IMG/VR virus record: IMGVR_UViG_3300021371_000067
Location: 1-31,510 of that record
Reading direction: 5' to 3' (one strand)
Source of the DNA: a virus
Length of the DNA: 31,510 bases
Part shown: piece by piece, positions 5,701-29,673 of the stretch
Layout: each line of letters opens with the position of its first letter
How positions within the stretch are numbered: the first letter of the stretch is position 1
Program-made: the position numbers and the translations under genes
The notes under the pieces: generated by a model
Told to the model about the DNA's origin: nothing
What the model saw: the letters and a program-made list of their open reading frames with translations, nothing else
The model's database searches: none

Positions 5701-8700
5701 AGTAATTAAGTTGATAGTGTCAGTGCCAAAATTAAGTTTAGTATCTTCGTCGCCAGCATGCCTTAAGTCAGATGATATATGGACCCTTGCAGCTTCTACT
5801 GTTGCGCTAGCTTTGATATCGCCTGTAACTTCAAGTTTCTTACTCGGAGTCGATGTTCCTATACCAACGTTACTACTATCAACAACAAGGATATTACTAT
5901 CTTGCGTAGTTCCACCAACAACCCTATTGACAACAAGTTTATTGCTTGAGTTAGTCGCTATATTGTAAGTAGATGTAGTAGCATCTGGGCTAGGATTAGA
6001 AAACCATAATGTTGATTCTAAAATAACTGATCTGCCTAAAATATGAGCATTACCCGCTCCAAAAGAATGACCGTAACCGTCCCTAGATCCATCTTCTATA
6101 CCCCTCTCAACTGATATTCCAAATCCAGAGGAACTGTTTACATCTAATTTAGCAGACGGACTCGTTGTTCCTATACCAACGTTGCCAGAAGTATCGATAT
6201 TTAGATTATTTGCATGTGTGCCAGCCTGAAATCCAAATGCTCCTTTGCCATTTTCAGCAGAAAGATAAACTGTTGTATCATCATCATTAAGAGCTATGGC
6301 GCATTTATTATCTAGAGAATTAAAGGAAGCTACTACGTCATCTGTTGACTCTACGTCTAATCTATGAGAAGGATTAGTTGTTCCTATACCAACGTTGCCA
6401 GAAGTATCGATTAGTATATCTCTATCATAATTGCTACCCCCCAAACCAAGAGGACCAGTAGTATTTTGAAGATAACCATAATTTGTACCTTCTAAAAGAA
6501 TAAGGGAGTCATTAGTATCTGCCCTTTTTAACCTTATTGAAGAGGCTGATGAAGCACTCTCAATGTCTAATTTATGGTTAGGATTCGTTGTTCCTATACC
6601 AACGTTACCGTCATTATCAGCAACTATAGTGTTGTTAGTCGTGCCACCATTTTTTGTGATTAACTTAAATCCATAAGTATCATTCGCTGTCCTATCATTA
6701 AGATAAAATACAGGCATACTAGTAGTACTTCCAATAGTGTAGAAACCAAAATAACCACTATGCCCTGCATTTATGTGGCCCACTCCTCCTGCGCCAGCAG
6801 CAGCAGGAGCAATAAAGTCGGAACCAATTTGCCACGAATTATTACCACCAGTATTAATATAGAATTTACCACCACTACTAGCCATATCTAATGTAGTAGA
6901 GACTATTGTGCTAATCTTTAAATTATAACCTGCTGTATCAGCTCCTATCGAATGTGTATATGTACCACCTGCTGACTTGATAAGTAAATCATTCGTACCG
7001 TTAACAGCTTGGTTAACAATAAGCCTGTCTGTAGAAGCAGTTCCATTAACATCTAACTTAAAGCTTGGACTAGTTGTTCCTATACCAACTTCACCAGAGG
7101 AATTTATAGTCAATCTGCTTAACGAGTTCCTAGCATCATATATATCGAAAGAACCTTCTGTTCCTCCTGCTCTTACTCGTAGCGCCCATCTGTTTAAACC
7201 CGGATTAAGATTGTTAGCGCTATTTAAAGCGATGTTTCCAACAACTTTTAATGTCCCATCGTTATAAGAAGTATCTGTCCCCCCCGCTACTACAAGTTTA
7301 GAACCCGGAGTAGTTGTTCCTATACCAACGTTACCCGCATCCCCGTCAACCGTTAGTCTATCAGCCCCACCCGCCAAGACCCTGATGTCATTGCCACTCC
7401 TATAAATGTATTCGCCTTCAGAAGTTGACGAACCAAATACAAATCCATTACTACCTGCGGCGTATACATTGTTGGATGCTAAGACATTACCTGTAACTGA
7501 AACACCATTAGATGTTGTTTCAAACTTCTTGACATTGTTGTGGTAAAGTTCAACAGCACCGTCTGCAATCCCTTTGAATAATGTTTCACCAGTATATTTT
7601 TGAACTACAAACTGAGCATTAGCTCTTACAAATAAATTGCCAGTCCCTGTATCATCAATATAACTAGCAGAACCATCATGGTAGATTTGAAGATCGCTGT
7701 TATCCCCAAATAGAGCTTTCCTGCCATCACCATAAAAAGAATCTTTATAGAAAATATTTAATCCTGCCCCGCCATCTACTCTAAAATATTCCTGAAGAGT
7801 CCCTGATGAATTTTCAGCCTGAAGTTTAATATCACCCCCGTGTACAGTATTACGTATATCTAAAACACCCGTTTTATTTACTATATAACTATCACCAGCC
7901 GAAGAGTGGTATAATTCTAAATCTTGAGCATTTCCAAAACGAACTTTAATATCATCGTTCAGATTTATATTACCTGACATCGTACCACCTGCTAGTGGTA
8001 ATGCAGCAATATCACTAAGAACTTGTGCTGCTGTTCTAGTTCCAAGAGTACCACCATCACTCACAACGAAAGGAGAAGCTGATGCAGAGTTAAGGCCAGT
8101 GAATTCGACATCTCCACTAACTGTTAAATCACCTGTAAGAGTACCGTCTGTAGCAGTAACTGAACCTGCAAAAGTTGCGTTACCAGAAGAGTTGATTGAC
8201 AATCTTACCTGATTGTTTGTTCCTAAACTTAAAGTCCCAGCTTCTCTATTATTTATTGTGAAGTTGGAACCACTGGAAACAAAAGCTGTTCCATCTGATG
8301 CTGTTGTTCCTGTTGTGTTATTTGTAAACTTTAATTCAGAGTTGGATGCAGCATTTATATGCAAGCCTGTTCCACCTGATTGTAAAGCTGGAGCAGTTGT
8401 TCCTATACCAACGTTACCAGCACCATCAATTCGCATCCTTTCAGCTAAAGCATTAGATGTATTACTAGTCTCAAAAATCAAGTTACCACCATTGGTATTA
8501 GTGGCCCACGGGCTAGTATGTATTGCAGCTTGATCTGTTTGGGTACCTGAAGATGTAGTGCCATAAAATAATAGATCATAACTGGAAGCTGAATTACCAG
8601 TGCCTATGCTGGCGATTTTTAGGTTACCACCAACCTCTAATTTTTCACTAGGACTAGTTGTTCCTATACCAACGTTACCGTCATAATCTATATGTAGTTT

Positions 8701-11700
8701 TGTGGTAGGAGAGGTTGAAGTAGCAGTGTCTAATGTCTGAAAAGACATGCTAGTACCTCTTGTCGTGTAAACAGAGTCGTCGTTAATCTGGTGCAGAATT
8801 CTACCAATTGTTCTTTGAGTAGTGCCGTTGTAGGTAGAACCTCTAAATACAATTCCTTGACCAAAACCAGTATACTCCAAGCTTGTTGTATGCTCTGTTT
8901 CTAGCGTTAAAACATCAATTGGGGCATTTCTATCACCAGTAGTCCCTACATATGCGTGGAGCTTAGTATCTGGACTAGTTGTTCCTATACCAACGTTGCT
9001 ATCTAGAATATAAGAACTATTGCCTCCAGCAGAAAGTCTTACTTTATTCACGCCATTATTATGTCTAAGGTAGAGACTGCCGTGACTACTCTCTTGACCT
9101 AAAGCCGCTATTTTAACTGTATTTCCAGAGTGTACTAATGTTATTTCATCTATATTACTCCCTGATGATTTTACTTGTAGTTTAGAATTAGGACTATTTG
9201 TTCCTATACCAACGTTACCAGCAGAAATGTGGTTAGCTGTTCCATCAGTATAGAAAGCTATTTTTTCTACACCCCCGTCATACATGTGGAATCTAGCTCC
9301 ATCAGTGGATTTCTCTGCTATTTGAACAATAGCATTAGTATTGCTGTTTCCCTGTATTGTTAAAGCAGAGTCTTTTGAGCTAACACTGTTTGATTTTATA
9401 GTTAAAGGCGATGTTGGACCCGTTGTTCCTATACCAATATTACCGTTTGATTTAATATATAGACTAGATGAACCAGCACTACCTGATCGTGGGTCGCCTG
9501 ATAAGAAATTAAGATGTGTAGAGTCTAAATAGATTTCACCTATACCACCAGCAGAGCTATCAAACCATAACCTTGGCGATTGCCCTCTTAAAATTAGTTC
9601 TGCTCCGTTAGTTGTGTCAGAAACAGCGAGAGTTGTTATTGTTGAAGTGTAACCACTAACTAAAGGGGCTGGCCCTATATGAAGTTTAGCTACTGGATTA
9701 GTTGTTCCTATACCAACATTCGTTCCATTATCATATGCAGCTCCAATCCCTAAGGTATCTGAATCTATCCACCTCGCTAGGTAATTAGCGGTTCCTGAGC
9801 CATCAACTGGCCCCGCTCCGATTGGCATTTCAATTACGTTACCAGAGGAATCAACGCCTAGTTTTTGCGTTACTGTCCCCGTGAATGTTCCAGCTCCGTA
9901 GTTGTTGAATTTAATAGCTCCAGCGGAGCTAATACGCATTCTTTCGGAAAGGACAGTGAAGAAAGCTAGTTCCCCAGTATCAACATTTGTACCATTTTTA
10001 AATGCTCTTATTTCCGCTACCCTACCGTTAGAAAGCGTTGATTGATGGTTTGTAAATGCTAAATAAGCGAAATCATCAGCGTCATCAGCGTCTGAACTTC
10101 CAGATAAGACTAACCCAGCTTGTTGAAGAGTTGTTGAAGATGAAGATCCTGCTGAAACTTGGAGCGCAGTTTCTAAGAAACCAAAATTATTTGGACTAGC
10201 TGTTCCTATACCAACGTTGCCGCTCAAGTCTTGGACAAAAGCATCTGAATCTGATGAAGGTCCAATATTTAATTTACCACTAGCATCTTTCCATATTCTA
10301 TGAGAAGTTGCATGTGAACTTGTTATAGCTAGACCATCAGACGCTGAATTACCTTTTTGTCTTAGGTGTAATGTTCCTGAACTAGCTACCCCTACACCAC
10401 CATCTATTATAGTTTGACCATCTTGCTCAACGACAAATACAATATTACTGTCATTACTTGTAGATGTGTTGCTTTGGATTTCAAATCTATTAGTTGTGTC
10501 ATCATTATTACTATCAATAAGTAATCTAATATCTCTGGTTGATGCAATTTCAACTTCTTGACCACTTGCAGATTCGATTCTAACTGTTCCGCTAGAATTT
10601 GTAATAGCTCCATTGACATCTAATTTAGCTGCTGGACTCGCTGTTCCTATACCAACGTTACCTGTAGATTGGTCAAGAAGCATTAATGAAGCTGCTGCTT
10701 GGGCCGTATTTGTGCTATGTCCATCCGTTACCGTAGCCCCTATTGTTAATTTTCTAGGACTCCCATCCAAAGTTCCTAAAAACCAATTATAGTGGTTACC
10801 CGAAACTGAATGATTCATCGAAATACCAGCTTCGGCAGTGCCAGATGTCTCTCGTATTTGGATTACGGGTGTGTTTCCTTCTACATGTAGTTTTGTATTT
10901 GGACTATTCGTTCCAATACCAACGTTACCTGTATTTATATAAGAGTTTCCATCTACATCTAAAAGAATTCCAATGGCATTACTTGATGTCTTGAGTTTTA
11001 TAGAACTAGCGTCATATTCGCCCCATCTAGTTGAAGCATTCGTATAGTCGTATAAAAATATCTGGTTGTTCTTAGCTGTTTGTGCAAAGTGTAAAGAGCC
11101 TCCACTAGCTTTAAAGTAAGCGTTGCCATTTGATAATGGCTCTATAGTAAAGTAGTTGGAGGCATCATAAGAAACTCTCAAATCTCCAAACACATCTAAC
11201 TTATCAGAAGGTGTGGTTGTTCCAATACCGACATTACCATCACCTGCTGGAGTCCCGATATACATAACTGTTCCAGCACCACCTACGATATGAATAGGTT
11301 TAGACCAACTCTTCCACTGCCAATAAGTTGAGCCTAATCCAAATCTATAAGTTGTTGCACCCCAGTCTATGTGACCATTATTCTCAATCTGTAACGCAGT
11401 AGTAAAAGAATCTCCATCTAGAATTAATTTACCCCCATTGCCATCAGAACCTAAAGGTTGAAGCGTTAAATCTCCAGTAGCTTGGATAACATCAAGAACA
11501 CCACTAACCCCAGAGAAAGCGTCAACGTTAATCGTTCCTGTAGCGGAAGGAGTTGCATCGAGGATTTCTTGAAGTGTTTGATCGTCAGTCTCAGAAGTAA
11601 GATAACCTTGGGAAGCTACCCAAGATTCGGAAGCTATCTGAGAACCCGTTAGTTGTGCGCTAGTCTGACCACTTAAAACAATAAGATCACTACCATACTC

Positions 11701-13782
11701 ACCCATCGTGATCTTGTCATATGTAGAAGTGGATTCAACCTCTACGATAGGGAGACCAGCGGCATCGTTGACTGAGAAGACGGTTCCGGTAACTTCATCA
11801 GTTACCCCGAATAAACGGCCATTCGAACCGTCTACACTGAAGTCTCCACCAGCAATATTAAACTCACCAGTTTTAGAGAATACACCTCCTGAGAAATCCA
11901 AGAACAAGGCATCATCAGCGTCAGACTGTTTAGTTCTATTATCGTTATCACTAAGGTAGACTGCACCTTGGTTTGTCACATTGACATAAGAGCCAAAAAC
12001 TTGCGCCCCAGCAGCACCACTAACAGTATTGTCGAGACCCCCACCAATGAAACCATAATCAGAAGTAACTATCGAATTGTCCTTACCTCCTCCTATAACA
12101 GCATAATCAGATCCTGAGATATCGTTATTTACGCCGCCAATACTACTAGAGTAATCTGAGTCTATTATATCTATACCGGATCCAGCCCCTATAAAACTAA
12201 AGTTGCCACTGCTAGTGCCGGAAATAGTGTTTTGAGTTCCAGCTACTATAGCGTCATAGTCGCCTTTAATTAAGTTTTGTGTACCCAATAATATGGCAGA
12301 ACCATATGAAAAAATCCTGTTACCAGATTGATCTGAAGCACCGCTAACATTAAAGATAGCCTTGTCAGACTCGAAAAATAAAGCAGAATCACCCTCAGAA
12401 CTGTCACCATAAATCTTAGATCTAGCATTTTTCCTAAACTCTATACCGTTTTCATGCAGGCTGTAAATCGGGCCACGGAAAGTTGATACTGCACTGCCAT
12501 TAGTTGTCAAGCCATTACCTAATGTTAGCAAACCACCAATACTCATTGCTGTGGTGGTGGATGCATCAGCGTCACACACATCCTGCAGGTCCAAAGTGTA
12601 CAGGTCTCCACTTATAGTGTTTATAGCTGTAGTATTATTCCCTACATTTGTCGTGTTACTAGTTACATAACCGCTCAAAGTATTTATTGAGCTAGTATTT
12701 GTCGAAATATTCGAAGTGTTAGTGCTGATGTTAGAAGTGTTTGCCGAAACATAAGAACTTAATCCATACCTACCATCCAAATCCGCCGTCTGGTCTGCCG
12801 CCCCATCGACACTCAATGTTAAAACACCATTGCTGGTATTAAAGTTAGCACCAGTAAGGTAAAAATTATCAGAACTTCCAGCTTCTGAAGGAGATAAAGG
12901 TGTAAAACCTAAAGCTCCTGTCACGTCACCACTAGATATTTCAGTCAAATAATTTGTGTTGGGCTTCTCTGCATACTCAAATTTGAAAGGGCCGACTGTC
13001 CACTGATCACCCAGACCAATTGTACTGTATGGTTTTATCGTTAGGTACAGATCACTACCAGTAAACTGAGGAACATTCTCTTCAAACAAAAACACACTTT
13101 GATTTTTGTTTTGAGATAAGGTTTTTGTAGCTGCGAGATGATCCGCAGACAAAGGGTTGCTATCAAAATATGTAGACCCTGATGCCCAGTATATATCAAC
13201 ATGATCAAAGTTGGTATACTCAGGGCTGTTCAAGAAATCAAAATCAATTTTTAATTGTCCAGAAACTCCAGATAACACTTGGGTAGACGCAGACCCAGCA
13301 GAAGAGGTAAACTTGTGTCCAGTAGCTGTATCTGTTACAGTAACTGATGAAACTCTTGGCCTGTTCCCGTAAAAATAAAACTCACTAGTAGTAACATTGT
13401 CGTCCCGGTCTTTGATCTCAGTTTTTATACCAAAATGTGGCGCATAAAAACCAAAGATGTCTATATTGTTCTGCTCAGTAAAGGTGAAACTGGACTGCTT
13501 GTAGCCAGATTGATAATTAGCATAGGCTACTGAACCATCTGGTTCTAGTATACTTATATTTGATTCTGTAAGGAACGCACTTTTTAGAAAATCTCTAGCG
13601 TCCGTAACTTCCTGACCGTCCCTGTCTTGAATCCGAAGATTTAAAGTTAGATCTCTATAGTTATGAACACCGCTACCACTAGAAGTCTGAGTTACGTCTG
13701 TAGTATTTCCACTGTATACAGAATCAAATTGAAACAAGCCTGTATTGTATAAAGAGGAAGAATATGTATAAAAGTTATCCAT
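2734..13782 (-). CDS. Giant modular tail fibre protein (3682 aa)
   Basis: This gene fills over a third of the window. The first 300 residues are beta-rich, likely the mount onto the tail tip. Residues about 345-395 are Asn/Thr-rich heptads (SNISTNTSNIST) suggesting a trimeric coiled-coil stalk. Residues about 490-600 carry YadA-head-like repeats (SDYAVIGGGKDNSI). Residues about 850-2640 hold 16 cassettes, each opening with a version of GNVGIGTTSPSAKLDVNG. The motif LPLAGGTMSG recurs at about 1927, 3127 and 3254. Six copies of a (L)xIYHDGSxSYI block occur, four of them in tandem near 3270-3520. The last 110 residues (KSFLVDNP, HGVYVRG, VELPEEW) form a distinct terminal domain. The S74 intramolecular chaperone usual after such repeats is absent. 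It starts 1 nt after the J stop. Role: host receptor recognition, assigned from repeat type and position. Confidence 0.9.
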   Translation of the reverse strand: MDNFYTYSSSLYNTGLFQFDSVYSGNTTDVTQTSSGSGVHNYRDLTLNLRIQDRDGQEVTDARDFLKSAFLTESNISILEPDGSVAYANYQSGYKQSSFTFTEQNNIDIFGFYAPHFGIKTEIKDRDDNVTTSEFYFYGNRPRVSSVTVTDTATGHKFTSSAGSASTQVLSGVSGQLKIDFDFLNSPEYTNFDHVDIYWASGSTYFDSNPLSADHLAATKTLSQNKNQSVFLFEENVPQFTGSDLYLTIKPYSTIGLGDQWTVGPFKFEYAEKPNTNYLTEISSGDVTGALGFTPLSPSEAGSSDNFYLTGANFNTSNGVLTLSVDGAADQTADLDGRYGLSSYVSANTSNISTNTSNISTNTSSINTLSGYVTSNTTNVGNNTTAINTISGDLYTLDLQDVCDADASTTTAMSIGGLLTLGNGLTTNGSAVSTFRGPIYSLHENGIEFRKNARSKIYGDSSEGDSALFFESDKAIFNVSGASDQSGNRIFSYGSAILLGTQNLIKGDYDAIVAGTQNTISGTSSGNFSFIGAGSGIDIIDSDYSSSIGGVNNDISGSDYAVIGGGKDNSIVTSDYGFIGGGLDNTVSGAAGAQVFGSYVNVTNQGAVYLSDNDNRTKQSDADDALFLDFSGGVFSKTGEFNIAGGDFSVDGSNGRLFGVTDEVTGTVFSVNDAAGLPIVEVESTSTYDKITMGEYGSDLIVLSGQTSAQLTGSQIASESWVASQGYLTSETDDQTLQEILDATPSATGTINVDAFSGVSGVLDVIQATGDLTLQPLGSDGNGGKLILDGDSFTTALQIENNGHIDWGATTYRFGLGSTYWQWKSWSKPIHIVGGAGTVMYIGTPAGDGNVGIGTTTPSDKLDVFGDLRVSYDASNYFTIEPLSNGNAYFKASGGSLHFAQTAKNNQIFLYDYTNASTRWGEYDASSIKLKTSSNAIGILLDVDGNSYINTGNVGIGTNSPNTKLHVEGNTPVIQIRETSGTAEAGISMNHSVSGNHYNWFLGTLDGSPRKLTIGATVTDGHSTNTAQAAASLMLLDQSTGNVGIGTASPAAKLDVNGAITNSSGTVRIESASGQEVEIASTRDIRLLIDSNNDDTTNRFEIQSNTSTSNDSNIVFVVEQDGQTIIDGGVGVASSGTLHLRQKGNSASDGLAITSSHATSHRIWKDASGKLNIGPSSDSDAFVQDLSGNVGIGTASPNNFGFLETALQVSAGSSSSTTLQQAGLVLSGSSDADDADDFAYLAFTNHQSTLSNGRVAEIRAFKNGTNVDTGELAFFTVLSERMRISSAGAIKFNNYGAGTFTGTVTQKLGVDSSGNVIEMPIGAGPVDGSGTANYLARWIDSDTLGIGAAYDNGTNVGIGTTNPVAKLHIGPAPLVSGYTSTITTLAVSDTTNGAELILRGQSPRLWFDSSAGGIGEIYLDSTHLNFLSGDPRSGSAGSSSLYIKSNGNIGIGTTGPTSPLTIKSNSVSSKDSALTIQGNSNTNAIVQIAEKSTDGARFHMYDGGVEKIAFYTDGTANHISAGNVGIGTNSPNSKLQVKSSGSNIDEITLVHSGNTVKIAALGQESSHGSLYLRHNNGVNKVRLSAGGNSSYILDSNVGIGTTSPDTKLHAYVGTTGDRNAPIDVLTLETEHTTSLEYTGFGQGIVFRGSTYNGTTQRTIGRILHQINDDSVYTTRGTSMSFQTLDTATSTSPTTKLHIDYDGNVGIGTTSPSEKLEVGGNLKIASIGTGNSASSYDLLFYGTTSSGTQTDQAAIHTSPWATNTNGGNLIFETSNTSNALAERMRIDGAGNVGIGTTAPALQSGGTGLHINAASNSELKFTNNTTGTTASDGTAFVSSGSNFTINNREAGTLSLGTNNQVRLSINSSGNATFAGSVTATDGTLTGDLTVSGDVEFTGLNSASASPFVVSDGGTLGTRTAAQVLSDIAALPLAGGTMSGNINLNDDIKVRFGNAQDLELYHSSAGDSYIVNKTGVLDIRNTVHGGDIKLQAENSSGTLQEYFRVDGGAGLNIFYKDSFYGDGRKALFGDNSDLQIYHDGSASYIDDTGTGNLFVRANAQFVVQKYTGETLFKGIADGAVELYHNNVKKFETTSNGVSVTGNVLASNNVYAAGSNGFVFGSSTSEGEYIYRSGNDIRVLAGGADRLTVDGDAGNVGIGTTTPGSKLVVAGGTDTSYNDGTLKVVGNIALNSANNLNPGLNRWALRVRAGGTEGSFDIYDARNSLSRLTINSSGEVGIGTTSPSFKLDVNGTASTDRLIVNQAVNGTNDLLIKSAGGTYTHSIGADTAGYNLKISTIVSTTLDMASSGGKFYINTGGNNSWQIGSDFIAPAAAGAGGVGHINAGHSGYFGFYTIGSTTSMPVFYLNDRTANDTYGFKLITKNGGTTNNTIVADNDGNVGIGTTNPNHKLDIESASSASSIRLKRADTNDSLILLEGTNYGYLQNTTGPLGLGGSNYDRDILIDTSGNVGIGTTNPSHRLDVESTDDVVASFNSLDNKCAIALNDDDTTVYLSAENGKGAFGFQAGTHANNLNIDTSGNVGIGTTSPSAKLDVNSSSGFGISVERGIEDGSRDGYGHSFGAGNAHILGRSVILESTLWFSNPSPDATTSTYNIATNSSNKLVVNRVVGGTTQDSNILVVDSSNVGIGTSTPSKKLEVTGDIKASATVEAARVHISSDLRHAGDEDTKLNFGTDTINLITAGTTALTVDSSSDVTVNNDLVVSGNFTVNGTTSTINSTTLQVDDKNIELGTVATPTDTTADGGGITLKGATDKTINWVNSTGAWTFSERVAITPDGSPSVPAITFSGDTDTGLLRFASGSSDTLGITTGGTLRAQFNPSGIISSANVYSGTSGQFRNFGGVWKATTGATGNGFQFISVDATALTISSTGDATFAGDLSADNITSTSNGGSASIYINSTRPTLGFTDSNSFTDPNDIYIIRGSGGNKIQFQWYDDSASSTTETFSIDNTGNATFAGSVNISTPASITPNTGASELVVGSGVGSQGITIYSGDTSAGSIHFADDLDEEGAGDNPAGNRDGVIIYSHSANNFDFKTAGNQQALALSNSIATFANNVTVANNATISGDLTVSTDFEAASAVTFSSLSNNASYDGILVQSAGDVHFRTKANILSDIAALPLAGGTLTGDLRISATDPTITLIDSSGANTDPNGTIIFSEVSGTTNFDINYNGASDRLEFRGLISSTLTDLVYIKRSSTDTVEVFGNVTASSFIKSGGTSSQFLKADGSVDSNTYLTTSSASSTYLPLAGGTMTGSTLHGDSVSSYWGSGNDLRIQHSGGSGSIYNITGDLNIINDATDGDILFKSDDGSGGITSYLQLDGGGVLTRAYKNFRAQDGIRIQAGSSGDFSILHNGTDSYLENDTGDLYIRNNADDKDIVFQSDNGSGGVTEYFRLDGSSASTYAYTVFPDLSVLSIGTGRDFEMHHNGASTYLTNKSGSLQISNSQDDGDIIFKSDDGSGGTTEYFRLDGSTEQNVVSKNMRFEDNIQAQFGQGTDLRIYHDGSNSYINETGTGDLIIKGGNDILFQDSVGNTLANMNESNSVELYYGGSKKFETTSGGVTVTGHLSATTKSFLVDNPKTGGKLQYGVVESDEHGVYVRGKSDQEVVELPEEWDWLVHEDSVTVQLTSVGQMQQLFIVEQNNKRIKVSGLAPNGQYNYVVHATRKDVDALEKHLK
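3190..3960 (-). repeat. Four tandem IYHDG-type fibre repeats, about 75 aa each
   Basis: Within the fibre gene four consecutive units share the pattern LRIYHDGSNSYINETGTGDL followed by a segment like DIIFKSDDGSGGTTEYFRLD. Unit spacing is about 220 nt. Two more diverged copies occur at about 7.65-7.93 kb. This is a phage-fibre shaft repeat type, and the units are related but not identical, which fits old tandem duplication. Confidence 0.8.
5855..11235 (-). repeat. Sixteen-copy NVGIGT cassette array with a conserved 17-nt core
   Basis: The plus-strand core GTTCCTATACCAACGTT, encoding NVGIGT on the minus strand, is exact at 5855, 6167, 6380, 6590, 7316, 8399, 8660, 8981, 9200, 10202 and 10643. 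Variants lie at 7076, 9425, 9704, 10910 and 11219. Every interval is a multiple of 3 (210 to 1083 nt). The sequence between cores differs from cassette to cassette, whereas the core is kept even at synonymous positions. Confidence 0.92.
11980..12310 (-). repeat. YadA-head-like beta-roll repeats within the fibre
   Basis: About six units of 14-17 residues with the pattern hxGxxNxxSGxxAxIGGG (for example SDYAVIGGGKDNSI and GFIGGGLDNTVSG) resemble the left-handed parallel beta-roll of trimeric autotransporter heads. They imply a trimeric collagen-binding-like head inserted in the proximal fibre. This is read from the repeat pattern only. Confidence 0.7.
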
Positions 13783-21984: not shown

Positions 21985-22815
21985 TTATAAGCGCTTTTTT
22001 TTATTCAAAAGCAATATTATCGGTATGGCACTTAGAAGAATAAAGTGGGCTTCTGGGATGGCTGTCCCTGTGGTGCCGTTAAACTTCAGTATATCAGGGT
22101 TTTGCGAGAATGATATGCCATTTAAATAAATGTCATCGCCCTGTTCTGAAAACTTTTCTAATGAACTTAAAGTAAGTTGAGCATTTGGGGCTAAGTTGAC
22201 GATTGATCTTTCAGTTTGACTATTTATTGAAGCCCCAGCTCCTCGTAGAGTTAAACTACTAGTTGAATCTACGTTTATTTCTAGCCCTATCGCAGAGAAC
22301 ATAGCGTTCATACTAGACCCTTCAGTGATATTTAAAGTAGAATAAACATTATCATCATCATTTACGCCAGTAAAACCATTGTTGTTTAGAAAGGTAAAAT
22401 CCGTAGATTTTAATGTTACTGAAAATCCATCGGCGATTTCAATGTGTGAATAAGCGGGGCTATCTTCGATTATAAAGGCATCTGTTATGCTTAATATATT
22501 GGCAATAGGCGAATCTCTGTCTAATTCCAGAGAATCTGATTGGGAAAAATCCCAGTTTGGAGTGTCATAAAAATCATAAATCTCTGCTTCATCTGCGTCC
22601 CAAGTGATAACCATATCTAATTTTTTATCTTCACTTTCAGATATGTCTATAATGTCCTCATTGCTAATCTGGATAGGTCTTTCTGGATTAATTAGAGGAT
22701 TAATATTGGGGTCTCCTATTGGATCCAATATAATTATATTACCTTCTACAGCGGATACAACAGCAGATTTAGCTACAGAAATAATTGAAAATAAAGTTAT
22801 GAGTGTGCGTTTCAT
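21985..22815 (-). CDS. Secreted PEP-CTERM-like protein encoded by the phage
   Basis: The 276-aa protein starts with a signal peptide (MKRTLITLFSIISVAKSAVV, likely cleaved near residues 18-22) and ends with a tripartite sorting-signal-like tail: IPEA near 252, a hydrophobic helix (HFILLSAIPIILLL) and a basic end NKKKRL. This is the organisation of PEP-CTERM signals (Pro-Glu-Pro motif, helix, Arg/Lys cluster) recognised by exosortase; Ala replaces the last Pro. The middle is Asp/Ser/Asn-rich and beta-structured (LTLRGAGASINSQ; ANAQLTL-like), consistent with a beta-helix surface or matrix protein. It overlaps the upstream 63-aa membrane gene as ATGA and ends at a terminator. Inferred role: host-envelope or extracellular modification during infection. 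An alternative is a tail-anchored periplasmic protein unrelated to exosortase. Confidence 0.7.
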   Translation of the reverse strand: MKRTLITLFSIISVAKSAVVSAVEGNIIILDPIGDPNINPLINPERPIQISNEDIIDISESEDKKLDMVITWDADEAEIYDFYDTPNWDFSQSDSLELDRDSPIANILSITDAFIIEDSPAYSHIEIADGFSVTLKSTDFTFLNNNGFTGVNDDDNVYSTLNITEGSSMNAMFSAIGLEINVDSTSSLTLRGAGASINSQTERSIVNLAPNAQLTLSSLEKFSEQGDDIYLNGISFSQNPDILKFNGTTGTAIPEAHFILLSAIPIILLLNKKKRL

Positions 22816-23008: not shown

Positions 23009-24241
23009 TTATTTTTTAATCATATTAGGAAGTTTTATGACATCAGGGACTTGAGTAACCTGATCATCTTCTTCTAGTTCGAATGTTTCTTCTGGGTTCT
23101 CTATATCTGTTTTTTTCTTTTCACCCTCTTCAGGCTGTTCTTCAGGCTCCCCCTCTTCAGATTCTTCCTCCACTTCTTCTTGCTCTTCTTCCTCTTTTTC
23201 CTCTTCTTCAGGTTCCTCTTCTTCTTCAGGTTCCTCTTCTTCTTCAGATTCCTCTTCTTCTTCAGACTCTTCTTCCACTTGCTCCTCTTCGGACTCCTCT
23301 TCGGACTCCTCTTCGGATTCTTCTTCGGATTCTTCTTCGGATTCTTCTGTCTCCTCTCCTTCAGTTTCTTCTTCAGTTTCTACAGAATCCTCTTCTTTAA
23401 CAGCTTCTCCTTCGCCTTCCTCATTATTTTCTTCTGTAGGTTCGCCCTCGTTTCCTTCAGCTTCGTCAGATGCTTCACCCTCCCCCTCTTCACCAACAGA
23501 CCCTTCATCTTCTCCCTCTTCTCCTCCTTCGTAACCTTCTTCAGACGTACCTACAACATCTCCATAACCCTTTTCAGCGTATTCTACAATCGCTTCGGTA
23601 ACACCACCAAAAGGTTGGAACCCAATTGTCGTCTCAGTAAAATCATTTAAATTAGAAAATATCTGGTGTTCCTGCTCTGCTACAACAGCTATTTCAGTAC
23701 CTTTTTCTTTTGTTGTTTTTGCTTGGAAGTAAGCTCCACTGCCTATGGACATAGTTCCAGCGACCCCAATTGTTCCTACTTTTTGTACCGTCTCTTGTAC
23801 AAAAGCACTTAAACCAGTAGCGGCACTTGCTGTTTGGGTTGTTGCTCCAGCAGCGGCTACAGCAGCAGTACCTTTTGCAGCTTTATCTAGAATATCTTTA
23901 TTTTTCTCAGCTATTTCACTGAGTTTATCCATAGTGGAGGTCTCAGGAGTTTCAGATTTGACTTCCTGACTTTTACCCTTTTTAACTTTTACCTCTTCTT
24001 CCCCAGCTTCTTCTTGCGAAAGTTCTTCTTCAACAACCTCGTCTTCTACTTCGGCACCACATTCCTCGCAAACACATTGTTTGCTCTGCTCCTCTCCCAA
24101 CTTCTGCAGCAAAGCCCATGCAGTCTCTCTAGCGTGACGGTCCAGATCGGATATGATATCATTATCCTCTGGATTACAATATTTTTTTGCAAAAGCTATC
24201 GCCTCCGCAAGATTTTTGCGATTTTCCCCGTCCATGTCCAT
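23009..24241 (-). CDS. Extremely acidic low-complexity protein with a Cys-rich knuckle
   Basis: A 410-aa protein in three zones. Residues 1-50 are a normal helical sequence (NLAEAIAFAKKYCNPEDND). A zinc-knuckle-like cluster follows: Cys56, Cys58 and Cys61 (CVCEECGAEVE). Residues about 115-185 are Ala/Gly/Thr-rich and moderately hydrophobic (AAVAAAGATTQTASAATGLS). Residues about 225-385 are almost entirely Glu/Ser/Gly with SEEE and EEEP repeats. I recognise no family. Such polyacidic tracts mimic nucleic acid or bind basic proteins, or they buffer or scaffold; none can be chosen from sequence. It leads an operon with a membrane peptide and the PEP-CTERM-like protein and is divergent from the holin. 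A GTGTAA motif lies 6 nt before its ATG. The tandem repeats imply unstable length. Confidence 0.75.
   Translation of the reverse strand: MDMDGENRKNLAEAIAFAKKYCNPEDNDIISDLDRHARETAWALLQKLGEEQSKQCVCEECGAEVEDEVVEEELSQEEAGEEEVKVKKGKSQEVKSETPETSTMDKLSEIAEKNKDILDKAAKGTAAVAAAGATTQTASAATGLSAFVQETVQKVGTIGVAGTMSIGSGAYFQAKTTKEKGTEIAVVAEQEHQIFSNLNDFTETTIGFQPFGGVTEAIVEYAEKGYGDVVGTSEEGYEGGEEGEDEGSVGEEGEGEASDEAEGNEGEPTEENNEEGEGEAVKEEDSVETEEETEGEETEESEEESEEESEEESEEESEEEQVEEESEEEEESEEEEEPEEEEEPEEEEKEEEEQEEVEEESEEGEPEEQPEEGEKKKTDIENPEETFELEEDDQVTQVPDVIKLPNMIKK
23207..23260 (-). repeat. 18-nt tandem repeat, three copies, in the acidic gene
   Basis: Plus-strand unit TTCAGGTTCCTCTTCTTC at 23207-23224 and 23225-23242, with a one-base variant (TTCAGA) at 23243-23260. 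It encodes repeated EEEEPE/EEEESE on the minus strand. Near-identity suggests recent slippage expansion. Confidence 0.9.
23288..23347 (-). repeat. 12-nt tandem repeat, five copies, in the acidic gene
   Basis: Plus-strand unit TTCGGAYTCYTC occurs five times back to back (first two TTCGGACTCCTC, last three TTCGGATTCTTC), encoding ESEE units. The block substitution pattern indicates two duplication events rather than selection on protein alone. Confidence 0.92.
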
Positions 24242-24762: not shown

Positions 24763-24936
24763 TTATTTTTCGCCCAACGACTTAAAGAATTCTTCTGTGG
24801 TTTTAAGAAACTCTTTTCTAGCTGGACCTGAGAGACTTTTATATTGTTTTTTGAATCTCCTATAATTTCTTCTTGATATTTCATCGTTCGTGTTTAATAT
24901 TAATTTTCTAATTTGTTTGGACTTTTTATTGTTCAT
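24763..24936 (-). CDS. Small basic protein (57 aa)
   Basis: Reads MNNKKSKQIRKLILNTNDEI and continues through RRNYRRFKKQYKSLSGPARK to SLGEK. It is strongly basic and helical (YRRFKKQYKSLS, then REFLKTTEEFF-like), reminiscent of a small phage family with a YRxxKKxYxxLxxxxRxxFL pattern, whose function I do not know. The ATG overlaps the GNAT stop as ATGA, and the stop is 1 nt before the next start, which together argue strongly that this short frame is the real gene here. A nucleic-acid-binding role would fit the charge but is only a guess. Confidence 0.7.
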   Translation of the reverse strand: MNNKKSKQIRKLILNTNDEISRRNYRRFKKQYKSLSGPARKEFLKTTEEFFKSLGEK

Positions 24937-25394
24937 AATTTAGCTATGTAAGTTTCACTATCTTTTAAGAAGCCGAGTCTACTGTAAAGACTCTTGACTT
25001 TATCTTTATTAGGTGATTTTTCGGAGCAACCCATCTGTATGAACTCAAACCCATTGTCTCTAGCAAATTTTATTGCTGTAGCCAAAAGCTTATAACCTGC
25101 CCTAGGATTGGAAGACAACCAAATGTACTCAGAGAACATCTCTACTCCATGTCTGGGATCCTTGTTCTTCAAAAAAATTATAGCCGCATCATAACTACCT
25201 GAATTGTTCATGTTGGCCCACACAAAAACTTTTGAGGTTAGAACCCGACTGTGGCCAAAAGCCTTCTTTATAGAGTCCACCCCATTCGGCAACAGGTAAT
25301 GATAGTTTTTGTCTTCACCCTCCAAGTCAAGAGCTTTCGTCAGGTCGTCCACAGCCTGACAAAAGTCCTCCCCGTTAGCTAGCCTTTTTATCAC
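24933..25394 (-). CDS. GNAT-family N-acetyltransferase
   Basis: The 153-aa protein has a GNAT layout. The N-terminal half is helical with a beta strand near residue 70 (DAAIIFLKN). Then comes the core beta4-alpha3 unit with the acetyl-CoA loop (SEYIWLSSNPRAGYKLLATA; Arg-x-Gly in place of the usual Gln/Arg-x-x-Gly-x-Gly/Ala), then beta5 (FEFIQMGCSEKS) and the closing YSRLGFLKDSETYIAKL typical of GNAT ends. It would transfer acetyl from acetyl-CoA to an amine of unknown identity. The start is GTG at 25394, overlapping the previous stop as GTGA. It sits in the recombination/glycosyltransferase operon; phage GNATs often modify structural or host proteins or polysaccharide precursors. Confidence 0.7.
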   Translation of the reverse strand: MIKRLANGEDFCQAVDDLTKALDLEGEDKNYHYLLPNGVDSIKKAFGHSRVLTSKVFVWANMNNSGSYDAAIIFLKNKDPRHGVEMFSEYIWLSSNPRAGYKLLATAIKFARDNGFEFIQMGCSEKSPNKDKVKSLYSRLGFLKDSETYIAKL

Positions 25395-26191
25395 TTTGCT
25401 ATGACTGCAATAAGCTTCCTAACCTCTTTCACAGGAATATCGTTAAAGGAACCCCAATCTTTTACGTCCTCATTAACATACTTCTCTTCTTTCCAAAGGA
25501 TCCGTAGTAAATCTTTAAACCCATCGAAATTGGTCACCTCATGCTTATCCCTAAGATATTTCTCTAGTAAACCCTTGGGTGTTGTAGTCGCTGCTGAGAC
25601 AGTAAAGCTTGAGTCGCTTGAGCTTTGTATAACCTTAGATCCCTTAGACTTGTCTATTTCGTCAGCGCCAACGATATGAATGTTAAGGAAGTTCCTCACA
25701 CACCTGACAAAAGCCCTGTTACATGCGATGGTCTCAAGGAATTTGGACGCAAAAGAATCTGTGTTGTCCAGACTTGCATTCGCCACGTCTGTATAAGTTG
25801 TCGCACATGACTCATAATTCCCATCCCATTCAATTGTGCATTTGGCTGTTACGTAACCATCTGAGATATTCTCTACCTCAAAATCCACAGAACTGTAACC
25901 TCTCATCTTAGCCAATTCTTTTATGCCACCAAGCATAATCAATAACTGGTTATCTCTCAAACCTTCTGTAGAGTCAGGAACAGTTTTGTTTCTAGTTGTA
26001 AACCAGTCTCTATTAGGGTAAAGGAAGTCAGGTTTTATCATAGACCTCCAATCAATAGACCCATCCTCATTAAACACATAATCTTGGTTCTTCAGCAAGC
26101 CGTGATTGTCTCTCTGGTAAATATCCGGTCCAAAAACCTTCTTCGCAGCAGCTTTCTTAACTACCTTTTTCGCTGTTTTCTTTTTGCTCAT
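25391..26191 (-). CDS. Rad52/ERF-like single-strand annealing protein, putative
   Basis: A 266-aa protein. The N-terminus is a lysine/alanine tail (MSKKKTAKKVVKKAAAKK) like histone H1-type DNA-binding tails. The core (about 75-175) follows the Rad52-fold order helix-beta-beta-beta-helix: LRDNQLLIMLGGIKELAKM, then VDFEVENI, YVTAKCTIEW, ATTYTDVANAS, and a helix FLETIACNRAFVRCVRNFLN that resembles the AETRAxNRALR signature helix of Rad52/ERF-type annealing proteins. A helical C-terminal domain (about 205-266) follows a Ser/Thr linker. Such proteins anneal complementary ssDNA during phage recombination. The call is by pattern only. It overlaps the upstream gene by 35 nt, and a Whirly-like ssDNA-binding gene opens the same operon. 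Confidence 0.5.
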   Translation of the reverse strand: MSKKKTAKKVVKKAAAKKVFGPDIYQRDNHGLLKNQDYVFNEDGSIDWRSMIKPDFLYPNRDWFTTRNKTVPDSTEGLRDNQLLIMLGGIKELAKMRGYSSVDFEVENISDGYVTAKCTIEWDGNYESCATTYTDVANASLDNTDSFASKFLETIACNRAFVRCVRNFLNIHIVGADEIDKSKGSKVIQSSSDSSFTVSAATTTPKGLLEKYLRDKHEVTNFDGFKDLLRILWKEEKYVNEDVKDWGSFNDIPVKEVRKLIAVIAK

Positions 26192-27305
26192 AAATGTAAA
26201 AATGGTCTAGTTCGTCCCAATATTCTGGAGTATCCAACACATTGTTATCGTTGTCAAGACCTTTCTTGTAGTGAGCATAGCTAAGATATTTTTTATCCGC
26301 CTCAAGAATATATTTGTTCGTCGAAAACTTGCAAGAATCAGGAATCTCTATCCTCTCGGCCTCTTCATATCTAGGGTGGACTTCTACATCGAAGTACTTG
26401 TTACGCAACGGTCCTAAATCACTATCCTTGTTTGCTAGAAGAACCAACCTTATATTCCAAGAAGACAGTATATCAAAATACTCCTTAGGAATATCTTCTG
26501 TATCACTGTCTAAAGCAAACATTAGAGTTTTTACGTTTTCTTTAAACATTTTTAAAATATCTGGCTGTATTAAACCTTCGGAAATTATTGTCACACGGTG
26601 ATTCAAACAGTAGTACATAAAAGCCTCTTCTTCAAACCCATAATCCGCCCTCAGGTATATTTCTTTTGGTAAACCCTCAATAATTTCAGTTGGAACAACC
26701 TCTATTATTTTTTGATTATAGTGAACTCCCACATGAAGCGTGGTTATGTTTGAAGGTACCTTGCCGCCGAGCAGTTTAATAACCGAATTAGCGACTTTTT
26801 CTGGCTTGATTTTATTGATACTGTCTTTTGGATCACGATCAGAATAACATGGTTTTACATCCCAATCAGGCTCTAGACAAACACACTGTTGTTTTTTAGA
26901 CCAATAGGGTTTTGTTACATTGGCATAGCTATTTCCAAACAGACTCACAGTTTTTACACCTATAGAGCTTGCATACTGGGCCAAATAGTCGTCAGACCCT
27001 AGATACAGCATAGATTTAGATATCAAGTAAGAAATGTTCTTGAAGTTACTAGTTATGTGTTTGTTCACGCCTAGTATAGGCTTATCTCCACCCACCTGCA
27101 AAACTTTTATGTTTTTCTCCTGAAGGAACTTCACAAGTAAACTAAAAACCAAAGGGTAATTCCTGTAAGACTTTGAAGCAACTGATGTGTCCCCATTAAT
27201 AATGATATAATTATCAAAATCAATCGGAAAAAAATGTGGAACTACTACAGGTCTACCTATTTTAACACCCAAGTTTTTTGCATACTCTTCTACTAAATGA
27301 GACAT
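26157..27305 (-). CDS. C-terminal half of a GT9 glycosyltransferase fused to an unknown domain
   Basis: The 382-aa protein begins MSHLVEEYAKNLGV, a motif normally found inside heptosyltransferase-type GT9 enzymes (HLVERY-like). It continues with the GT9 C-terminal Rossmann half to about residue 180: FDNYIIINGDTSVASKSYRN, VLQVGGDKP, GSDDYLAQYASSIGVKTVSL, a cysteine pair region (Cys141, Cys143, Cys153) and IKPEKVANSVIKLL. The catalytic-region pattern nDSG...H of GT9 reads SDDY...Q here. Residues about 185-382 (LHVGVHYNQKIIEVVPTEII onward) match nothing I know. The N-terminal Rossmann half is at the end of the upstream protein; the two genes join by a TAATG overlap. They probably form one split enzyme acting on a nucleotide-sugar and glycan acceptor; the substrate is unknown. 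Confidence 0.65.
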   Translation of the reverse strand: MSHLVEEYAKNLGVKIGRPVVVPHFFPIDFDNYIIINGDTSVASKSYRNYPLVFSLLVKFLQEKNIKVLQVGGDKPILGVNKHITSNFKNISYLISKSMLYLGSDDYLAQYASSIGVKTVSLFGNSYANVTKPYWSKKQQCVCLEPDWDVKPCYSDRDPKDSINKIKPEKVANSVIKLLGGKVPSNITTLHVGVHYNQKIIEVVPTEIIEGLPKEIYLRADYGFEEEAFMYYCLNHRVTIISEGLIQPDILKMFKENVKTLMFALDSDTEDIPKEYFDILSSWNIRLVLLANKDSDLGPLRNKYFDVEVHPRYEEAERIEIPDSCKFSTNKYILEADKKYLSYAHYKKGLDNDNNVLDTPEYWDELDHFYIYEQKENSEKGS

Positions 27306-29191
27306 TACCTTAAAGAAAATTGATTTTTACTTAACCCGTTATGGATATAACAAGGATTTTTTTGGGTTGTTATATTGGGATAAAACACCATGTCAAATAA
27401 ACCTTTTTCTGACCCTCTGCCCTCTAGAGCAAATGTATTTTCCAACTGCTGCGTATAAGGAAGGAGTTTATGAAGATTTTGGTTGTCTTCAATAAATTCA
27501 AAATACTCAACCTTTGTGAAAACGTATATGTTGTAATCCTTGTAGTTGTTTTTTAACTGCTTAAGTAGAGAATTTACCAATAGCACATCTGTCTCTGACT
27601 CCGGTATAATAACGGCAATCCTGCTACCCTCGTCATCACTTAGCAAATCCCCTAAACTAGGTTTACTACTCTGGGTGTTGTGGTTCTGAGCGACTCTTTT
27701 AAAGTGAGTTACTAGATCATCAGACTTCATACCTTTCGCCAGTTTATCTTTCCAGTGCTTAAACCCTTTACTGTTTCTATCCACATCTTCATCCACAACA
27801 TTCTTATAAAGGTCAATTATAAACTCATCTGAATTCAAACCTTCTGGAGGGCTGTAATCGGCATTCATGAGTTTTTTAGTAGTGTCGTAATCGTAGTCAA
27901 CTTCGGGCATGTTATCTATAATAGACTCCAACTGTTTACCGATTACTTCAACAGAAAAATTATCAACAACCCACTGTCGAGACTTTTTACCCATTTCCAA
28001 CTTATCCTTTTCTGACATGTTGTAAACATGACTAAGCATAGTAGAAATATGCTTCGGGTCTGTACTAGCTTTGATAAACTGAGTCCCCGGCTCCCTATAC
28101 TCATTCCAGTTCAAAGGGAAGCCCCCACTTTCCTCAGAGCAACTATCTTCACCGCAAGAATAATTGGTGACTAACGTAACAAGTTCTGTAAGTTTGGCCT
28201 CTTGAATAGGTATCTCTTGACCACCACTTGTAAAAGGGTGACAGTAAACGTCCATCAGGTTGTAAATCTCATTTAACTGCTGTTCAGTAACACCCTTTTT
28301 AGTATTTGTCGTATTTACTGTTTTTTTCGACCCGCAAGACGGACAATCAGTCTGCTGACCTTTAAAGGGACTGATATAATAAGTACCACAAGACTCACAC
28401 ACGTAAGTAGTTAGAACATCTATACTAGCTATACCCTTCTCATCTATTAATTTTTTAATGTCCCAACCTTCTCCCCAGTGAGTATGCAAGAGTAATTTAG
28501 CTTTTGAATCTGGATTTTCATCTTTAAACTGCCTAAAGGCTTCAAGTAGGTTAGGGACAGACTTCCTCAACTGATTTCGGAAGACAAAACCAATAATAAA
28601 CTCGTCATTTAGTCTATGGTGGTCCCTAAGCTCCGCCCTATCTTCATCTGGTATTCTGTAGAAGTTTTTAGTATCAAGAGACCCTCTTAGTGTTTTAACA
28701 TGGTTGTAACCCATTTCATTCATAGCTCTCTCTGCGAAACTAGCCCAGACAAAGTAGTTTTTTATCTTTGGGGCGTACTCTACAGCCTGAGGTAAGATTG
28801 GAAGACTATCTAGTGTTGTCCACACCATGCAATTAACCTTATTCCACCAAGGTTTTTGATGAAAATTATTAAAGGCCCAGATGTCCTCTATGCCAATATA
28901 AACGTCAGGTTTGAACTCCTCCACAGCTTTATCGACTAAACTAAAACCATAGCCCTCTGCCCTCCTTGATTTAGCATCTAAAGCAGCTAAGCTTTGAGAA
29001 CTAGGGTTAGCACCTCTACACTCCCAAGGCACTAGCTTGGTCCTAGGCTCCCCCCACTGCAAACCATTAGCTAACTCAAACAATTCATACTTCCCAGTAT
29101 CGTATAGATACCTAAGTATATTTTTTTTGTTTTTACCGAACCCGGTAAAAGCTTTGCAAAAATTAGAATGAATTAATACCTTCTTTTTCAT
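27305..29191 (-). CDS. GT4-type glycosyltransferase with zinc ribbon, DUF4214 and N-terminal GT9 half
   Basis: A 628-aa mosaic. Residues 1-425 form a GT-B glycosyltransferase of GT4 type: KKVLIHSNFCKAFTGFGK, then the second Rossmann half from 196 (FIIGFVFRNQLRKSVPNLLE) and the donor-binding loop SGGQEIPIQEAK with Glu331 kept as the second Glu of E-x7-E while the first position is Gly323. A zinc ribbon interrupts it (Cys265, Cys268, Cys283, Cys286). Residues about 452-503 match DUF4214 (FIIDLYKNVVDEDVDR, GFKHWKDKLAKGM). Residues about 523-620 look like the first Rossmann half of a GT9 enzyme (RIAVIIPESETDVLLVNSLL). It likely glycosylates a host-surface or virion component. ATGA overlap upstream and TAATG downstream. 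Confidence 0.75.
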   Translation of the reverse strand: MKKKVLIHSNFCKAFTGFGKNKKNILRYLYDTGKYELFELANGLQWGEPRTKLVPWECRGANPSSQSLAALDAKSRRAEGYGFSLVDKAVEEFKPDVYIGIEDIWAFNNFHQKPWWNKVNCMVWTTLDSLPILPQAVEYAPKIKNYFVWASFAERAMNEMGYNHVKTLRGSLDTKNFYRIPDEDRAELRDHHRLNDEFIIGFVFRNQLRKSVPNLLEAFRQFKDENPDSKAKLLLHTHWGEGWDIKKLIDEKGIASIDVLTTYVCESCGTYYISPFKGQQTDCPSCGSKKTVNTTNTKKGVTEQQLNEIYNLMDVYCHPFTSGGQEIPIQEAKLTELVTLVTNYSCGEDSCSEESGGFPLNWNEYREPGTQFIKASTDPKHISTMLSHVYNMSEKDKLEMGKKSRQWVVDNFSVEVIGKQLESIIDNMPEVDYDYDTTKKLMNADYSPPEGLNSDEFIIDLYKNVVDEDVDRNSKGFKHWKDKLAKGMKSDDLVTHFKRVAQNHNTQSSKPSLGDLLSDDEGSRIAVIIPESETDVLLVNSLLKQLKNNYKDYNIYVFTKVEYFEFIEDNQNLHKLLPYTQQLENTFALEGRGSEKGLFDMVFYPNITTQKNPCYIHNGLSKNQFSLR

Positions 29192-29673
29192 GAACGAGAC
29201 TTTAATTCTTCATTCTTATTGAAACGATAAGCGTATAACTCCTGAAGAGAGAACCTGAAAAACTCTAGCAGACAATAAGCTTCTGACATTTCGACACCAA
29301 TTCCAAACTTATTAGTAGAGTTTCTTACGATACCGAACGAAAAAGCATTAGGTCTTCCATCCCTCTTCCAAGGCTTAAAAGATATTTGTGTCTTATTATC
29401 CTCAAAAGAATGGTACGCCGAAAACTCTGTATAGTTTTCTATGGCGTTTATCAAACCACCTATTTCCACCTCATTAAGTTTTATAGACACAGAAGTTTCT
29501 GGATTCTTAGCGTTCTTAGCGAAAGACCCAGTCCTCTTTGACTGGTCCCAAGAATACTGCCTGACAGCCCTTACATACACACAAGGTTCTCCTGTCTGTA
29601 CAACACTCCCAAGGTCACAACTAAAAGCGCACCCTGTGTTTCTAGGGTTGGGTTTATAGAGCTTTACAATCAT
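29188..29673 (-). CDS. Whirly-like single-stranded DNA-binding protein
   Basis: The 161-aa protein follows the Whirly/PC4-like fold in order: beta strands in the first 45 residues (TGCAFSCDLGSVVQ; CVYVRAVRQYSWDQSKRTGS), the helix-initiating segment SIKLNEVEIGGLINAIENY, an acidic/aromatic strand (EFSAYHSFED), TQISFKPW, NAFSFGIVRN, and a final FGIGVEMSEAYCLLEFFRFS helix. Plant Whirly proteins share this spacing, including YDW/YSWD, a Ser-Ile-x-Pro-type SIKP/SFKP strand and the end helix. They bind ssDNA without sequence preference. It is the first gene of an operon that also holds a Rad52-like protein, fitting a replication or recombination role. Fold assigned by eye; no conserved catalytic residue is expected. 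Confidence 0.6.
   Translation of the reverse strand: MIVKLYKPNPRNTGCAFSCDLGSVVQTGEPCVYVRAVRQYSWDQSKRTGSFAKNAKNPETSVSIKLNEVEIGGLINAIENYTEFSAYHSFEDNKTQISFKPWKRDGRPNAFSFGIVRNSTNKFGIGVEMSEAYCLLEFFRFSLQELYAYRFNKNEELKSRS

Follow-up and report, generated by a model that had tools for sequence, protein, structure and literature searches.

The window analysed here is one linear virus record with a length of 31,510 bases. On its minus strand it carries a closely packed run of genes that includes, in the direction of transcription, a 161-aa gene (29188..29673), gene 1 (27305..29191), gene 2 (26157..27305), a 266-aa gene (25391..26191) and an acetyltransferase-like gene of 153 aa (24933-25394; matching phrog_1249 at E 3.8e-7). 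All features described below lie on the same strand unless they are placed elsewhere in the window. Gene 1 encodes a 628-aa protein, chain 1, in which a GT4-like enzyme is followed by a DUF4214 domain and a segment that matches the N-terminal half of GT9 glycosyltransferases. Gene 2 encodes the 382-aa chain 2, which begins MSHLVEEYAKNLG and combines a match to the GT9 C-terminal half with a C-terminal domain that has no assigned family. At either end the pair overlaps its neighbour: the start of gene 1 with the stop of the 161-aa gene directly upstream, and the end of gene 2, over 35 nt, with the 266-aa gene directly downstream.

Genes 1 and 2 meet in a TAATG stop/start overlap (27303..27307). 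A sequence-only reading of this DNA had proposed that the two halves of a GT9 enzyme are joined at such an overlap, and direct reading of the minus strand at 27307-27303 agrees: the TAA stop of gene 1 occupies 27307-27305 and the ATG of gene 2 occupies 27305-27303, the last A of the stop being common to both. The junction reads ...TTT TCT TTA AGG TAA, then ATG TCT CAT. Translation of the two genes is probably coupled, as the overlap itself suggests.

The surroundings of the pair are constant. Among the matches listed, which comprise 110 distinct loci, the 161-aa gene adjoins gene 1 upstream in 97 of the 97 loci with room for it, and the 266-aa gene adjoins gene 2 downstream in 108 of 108. The 161-aa gene, gene 1, gene 2 and the 266-aa gene thus form a fixed four-gene cassette, without exception where there is room. 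Neither outer gene has a Pfam family over the cut-off or a PHROG match under E 0.01. Because the cassette places the pair between two conserved genes without a family, a role in DNA hypermodification was considered; it was rejected since a thymidylate-synthase family occurred in 0 of 16 contigs while the controls were positive. A search for Tet/JBP also gave 0 of 16 contigs, with a positive control that was silent as well.

Several other features of the window were recorded. By eye, the protein encoded at 21985-22815 starts like a signal peptide and ends in a PEP-CTERM-like tail, as does the one at 10513-11247 of the related locus L011; such proteins are unusual for a phage and perhaps hint at a host with exosortase sorting. 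A 410-aa gene (23009-24241) has a very acidic, repeat-rich C-terminal region of the SEEE type, the length of which differs among relatives. A 3682-aa protein (2734-13782) with many NVGIGT-type repeats appears tail-fibre-like by eye, and after its gene several concanavalin-like genes, also recognized by eye, lie at 1-2467.

Chain 1 outside its GT9 segment resembles a GT4 enzyme. Residues 2-428 (27908..29188) match phrog_2170, a phage family of glycosyltransferases, with E 3e-19, and give weak matches to GT4 Pfam models. A low-confidence model of the chain retrieved GT4/GT-B enzymes in Foldseek (best E 4.3e-9). The GT4-like region contains a zinc-ribbon-like CxxC...CxxC insertion at residues 262-297 (28301..28408), with below-cut-off matches to PF14319 and PF09723 and four cysteines identified by eye. 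DUF4214 covers residues 451-499 (27695..27841) at E 6.1e-5 and 23.5 bits, slightly above the cut-off of 23.2; in the relative L029 it reaches E 0.022 only. Full-length relatives of gene 1 share 62% to 100% identity among themselves.

To place the two GT9 segments, profiles of 53 non-redundant relatives were compared with a reference profile of 20 bacterial GT9 ORFs (L044-L063), the starts of which were guessed from Met positions. Each hhalign E-value refers to one comparison, and column shuffles serve as control. The N-half profile, corresponding to chain 1 residues 524-628 (27308..27622), aligned to GT9 positions 16-77 with a probability of 94.6 and a score of 54.7, whereas 100 column shuffles gave at most 24.9. 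When the profile was run blind on 296 bacterial genomes of one phylum, matches appeared in 81, and all 18 of the best matches that were tested were intact full PF01075 proteins. This profile match and the blind retrieval support the proposal that the last 100 or so residues of the 628-aa protein are the first Rossmann half of a GT9 enzyme. The last 111 residues of chain 1 had no relevant Pfam match, and PDB sequence searches with the N-half found no GT9, neither with a profile of 14-15 sequences nor with the 53-sequence set. The segment is short, with about 105 residues in chain 1; the N domain of HepI has 152 residues (PMC8124905).

The C-half, the donor-binding side of GT9, corresponds to chain 2 residues 1-182 (26760..27305). 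The weak GT9 Pfam match of the window covers residues 87-146; the C-half scores 21.6 bits against PF01075, 0.4 under the 22-bit cut-off. Within the family, PF01075 was matched at E<=0.01 by 46 of 53 members, and in two sets of records 9 of 11 and 11 of 16, respectively, exceeded its curated cut-off. The 53-sequence profile matched the heptosyltransferase II structure PDB 1psw (E 6.9e-5), and a smaller profile of 14-15 sequences found no GT9 in the PDB. In the hhalign comparison, the C-half aligned to GT9 positions 199-365 with a probability of 98.7 and a score of 113.3, with a shuffle maximum of 22.6, and Foldseek returned WaaC as best match of a low-confidence model of chain 2 (E 5.9e-3, probability 0.99). 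The expectation that the gene after the 628-aa protein continues with the second GT9 half is borne out by the PF01075 and 1psw matches. The remaining part of chain 2, about 190 residues (186-374; 26184..26750), is conserved in alignments of the relatives; it showed no Pfam family over the cut-off and no GT9 match.

When N-half and C-half were joined, they aligned co-linearly over GT9 positions 16-365, with a probability of 99.2 and a score of 141.8, and both halves also align co-linearly to E. coli WaaC. In tests with smaller first alignments, joining the halves in swapped order recovered the C-half match alone, and other segments of both proteins scored at most 16.2, or at most 17.0 with reversed columns included. 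By the standard of profile comparison, the two segments are the N- and C-terminal halves of GT9, in GT9 order and on adjoining genes.

Residue matching was carried out with WaaC of E. coli MG1655 as reference. Chain 1 D535 (27587-27589) aligns to D13, the proposed catalytic base of WaaC, and chain 2 K45 (27171-27173), D105 (26991-26993) and Q110 align to K192, D261 and H266, respectively. Conservation was counted in 106 sequences, i.e., the window and 105 of the 110 distinct pairs, pairs with chains shorter than 300 aa in the fetched stretch being dropped. D535 was kept in 106 of 106, although the Gly that precedes it in the GT9 Gly-Asp motif is not kept in the window. Position 45 is Lys in 95 sequences, Arg in 7, and Gln, Thr or Asp in the other 4; position 105 is Asp in 97 and Asn in 9. 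At position 110, the GT9 His is present in 67 sequences and replaced by Gln in 38, including the window. In WaaC, substitution of the equivalent residues cut activity 4688-fold (D13A), 2027-fold (D261A) and 926-fold (K192A), as reported in PMC5713226. With D535 on chain 1 and K45 and D105 on chain 2, the two sets of important residues of the cleft are located on two proteins. The dN/dS ratio was low (0.02-0.10) in every computable segment of both halves; 12 pairs were tried, several of which were saturated or too short.

These results bear on two readings in which the halves do not make up a glycosyltransferase. In the first, they share no active site: the N-half would serve the GT4 enzyme as an accessory or acceptor-binding appendage, and chain 2 would be a separate GT9-derived nucleotide-sugar-binding protein. 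The replacement of the His equivalent by Gln in 38 of 106 sequences and of D105 by Asn in 9 of 106 would fit this, and the separate models of the chains, built from shallow alignments of 5 and 4 sequences, are unreliable (mean pLDDT 42.8 and 44.5). However, conservation extends to both sides of the cleft, the position proposed as catalytic base never varies, yet a binding appendage would have no use for it, and the halves are neighbours, in constant order, in all split loci listed. We consider separate roles unlikely. In the second reading, the chains do form a heterodimer, but with a degenerate or repurposed fold and another activity, e.g., binding or a non-sugar transfer. The distance of the pair from characterized GT9 enzymes, the lack of an assigned acceptor or donor and neighbours without a family match leave some room for it. 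On the other hand, most members keep the three positions of mutational importance in WaaC or exchange them conservatively, and a repurposed fold appears very unlikely to us.

To examine whether the division is peculiar to this phage, loci were collected by pattern scans in which the 80 best matches to the window were retained; a distant fused relative could escape them. This gave 331 loci, several stretches of the same contigs included. Among these matches, the halves lie in separate ORFs in 323 loci, representing 118 distinct split sequences, and in a single ORF in none (0 of 331); in all 323, the halves are neighbours, with the N-half first. The 8 loci not scored as split comprise 6 with the C-half only, in which the contig begins close to the junction or at it (two of these, L018 and L154, which duplicates it, had been scored as split in an earlier pass), and 2 without a match, in which the contig begins downstream. 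Identity among split pairs goes down to 31%, as measured with 110 of the 118 distinct sequences. As a positive control, the same procedure was applied with a looser threshold to 46 ordinary bacterial GT9 loci. It scored 15 as fused, 22 as C only, 4 as N only, 2 as neither and 3 as having the two halves in different ORFs; in the latter three, the C matches lie far upstream of the N match, two of them in another frame, and they are read as neighbouring GT9 genes.

A search for an intact GT9 elsewhere, in 16 long contigs of 58-148 kb, found none. Each contig has a single GT9 match, taken from its location and the reading frames of 374-407 aa to be the C-half in gene 2. Two relatives are on MAG contigs labelled Verrucomicrobiales and Flavobacteriaceae, labels that do not establish a host. 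A second phage-like contig in the Flavobacteriaceae bin of L030, L031 (G011:C140), carries a split pair too, of the ATGA type. No close relative was found in named phages by tblastn with both chains or with single halves.

The junction itself varies. TAATG recurs at the corresponding position in all 20 contigs collected first, the window included, and so exceeds chance, but among 110 distinct pairs the stop-to-start distance is -4 in 35, -1 in 28, +1 in 18 and +2 in 15, and more rarely +4 (3 pairs), +3 (2), -13 (2) or +12 (1). In 6 of the 110, a whole gene separates the halves, with a gap of 365-385 nt. These six, L214 and five other distinct loci, form one clade, and in L214, the one tested, the intervening gene (4576-5004) encodes DUF6165 (PF19662, 33.8 bits, cut-off 27). 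All three frame relations of the halves are found, in 81, 23 and 6 of the 110 pairs, the window belonging to the class of 81. A quick tree, built from 106 sequences without their junction columns, requires at least 19 changes of junction geometry and at least 15 of frame relation, whereas the gene insertion is a single event.

These counts decide against the proposal that a single base change broke up an ancestral fusion. If the window is viewed alone, its TAATG overlap does resemble a small slip, as a recent mutation or sequencing error in an intact GT9 would leave. The split in 323 of 331 loci at identities down to 31%, together with the repeated changes at the junction, the intervening gene and the lack of any fused locus among the matches listed, makes the probability of such an accident close to negligible. 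The split is old and has been kept. That the cell produces both halves as one polypeptide, through programmed frameshifting or through readthrough of the stop, is also highly improbable. A -1 shift could in principle join them in the window and the rest of the 81 class, which share one frame relation. With the varied junctions and frame relations and a whole gene in between in some members, though, no common frameshift can do so. Moreover, inspection by eye found no canonical slippery heptamer at the junction of the window (T TTA AGG) or of its nearest relatives (A TTA AAG), and in the latter the -1 frame has stops upstream of the ATG.

We therefore favour, as the likely reading of the sequence data, that the two genes encode one heterodimeric GT9-type glycosyltransferase of the GT-B fold, with a composite active site and with a GT4 enzyme attached to its N-half. 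The suggestion that the enzyme is made as two chains that complement each other, with the first half tethered to a GT4 enzyme, agrees with both the split counts and the GT9 matches of the halves. Chain 1 would supply the acceptor side, i.e., the N-terminal Rossmann half with D535 as proposed catalytic base, together with the GT4-like enzyme and DUF4214, and chain 2 the nucleotide-sugar side, i.e., the C-terminal Rossmann half with K45 and D105, together with its further domain. Coupled translation would produce both chains together, and on pairing the active site would form in the cleft between the two polypeptides. Since the N-half is covalently joined to the GT4 enzyme, two sugar-transfer steps could be housed in one complex, and the fusion suggests two transfers per assembly. 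The heterodimer, its activity and its acceptor are what we infer from these data.

Compared with the heptosyltransferases WaaC and WaaF (HepI and HepII), the phage pair shows a co-linear profile match and counterparts of D13, K192 and D261. Unlike the pair, these enzymes are single chains with a longer N domain, and neither their donor, ADP-heptose, nor their LPS acceptor should be assumed for the phage enzyme. Another phage protein with a GT9 match (hhalign probability 97.1) is the hypothetical 289-aa gp167 of Caulobacter phage C1. The C-half profile finds a match in its C-terminal part (E 1.6e-9), but the protein has no recognizable N-half of the phage pair (hhalign probability 2.3) and lies outside the cassette.

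To our knowledge, natural splits of GT-B enzymes are known only from the branch of MurG, Alg13/Alg14 and EpsE/EpsF, and we found no published description of a split GT9 in the open-licence PMC literature, of which coverage was partial. Annotation overlooks the pair, because the N-half has no relevant Pfam match and the C-half is often near or under the GT9 cut-off. A probable second split origin in GT9, with more than 100 diverged phage sequences and no fusion found, raises the question what keeps the two pieces of a GT-B enzyme apart; the pair may also be a source of natural split partners for enzyme engineering. We give about an even chance to the fullest form of this interpretation: an uncultured tailed-phage lineage has an obligately heterodimeric GT9, with the base on a bifunctional GT4-GT9N chain and the donor site on a second chain, which arose as a split GT-B enzyme independently of the MurG/Alg13-Alg14 branch and transfers two sugars, one after the other, to a phage-specific acceptor.

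The closest parallels are the eukaryotic UDP-GlcNAc transferase Alg13/Alg14 and bacterial EpsE/EpsF, in which one GT-B enzyme is divided between its domains, with N-half and C-half from two genes; in Alg13/Alg14, the active site is located between the two chains (PMC8993221, PMC4973528). The phage pair has the same arrangement of N and C halves on separate genes, as known from its gene architecture. The systems differ in ancestry, with Alg13/Alg14 and EpsE/EpsF related to MurG (GT28/GT1) and the phage halves assigned to GT9 by GT9 profile matches. Re-fusions are known for the former, in contrast to 0 of 331 loci among the matches listed for the phage pair. Furthermore, the phage pair differs by the GT4 enzyme attached to its N-half and by the further domain that follows its C-half. 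The phage pair is probably an independently evolved counterpart of Alg13/Alg14.
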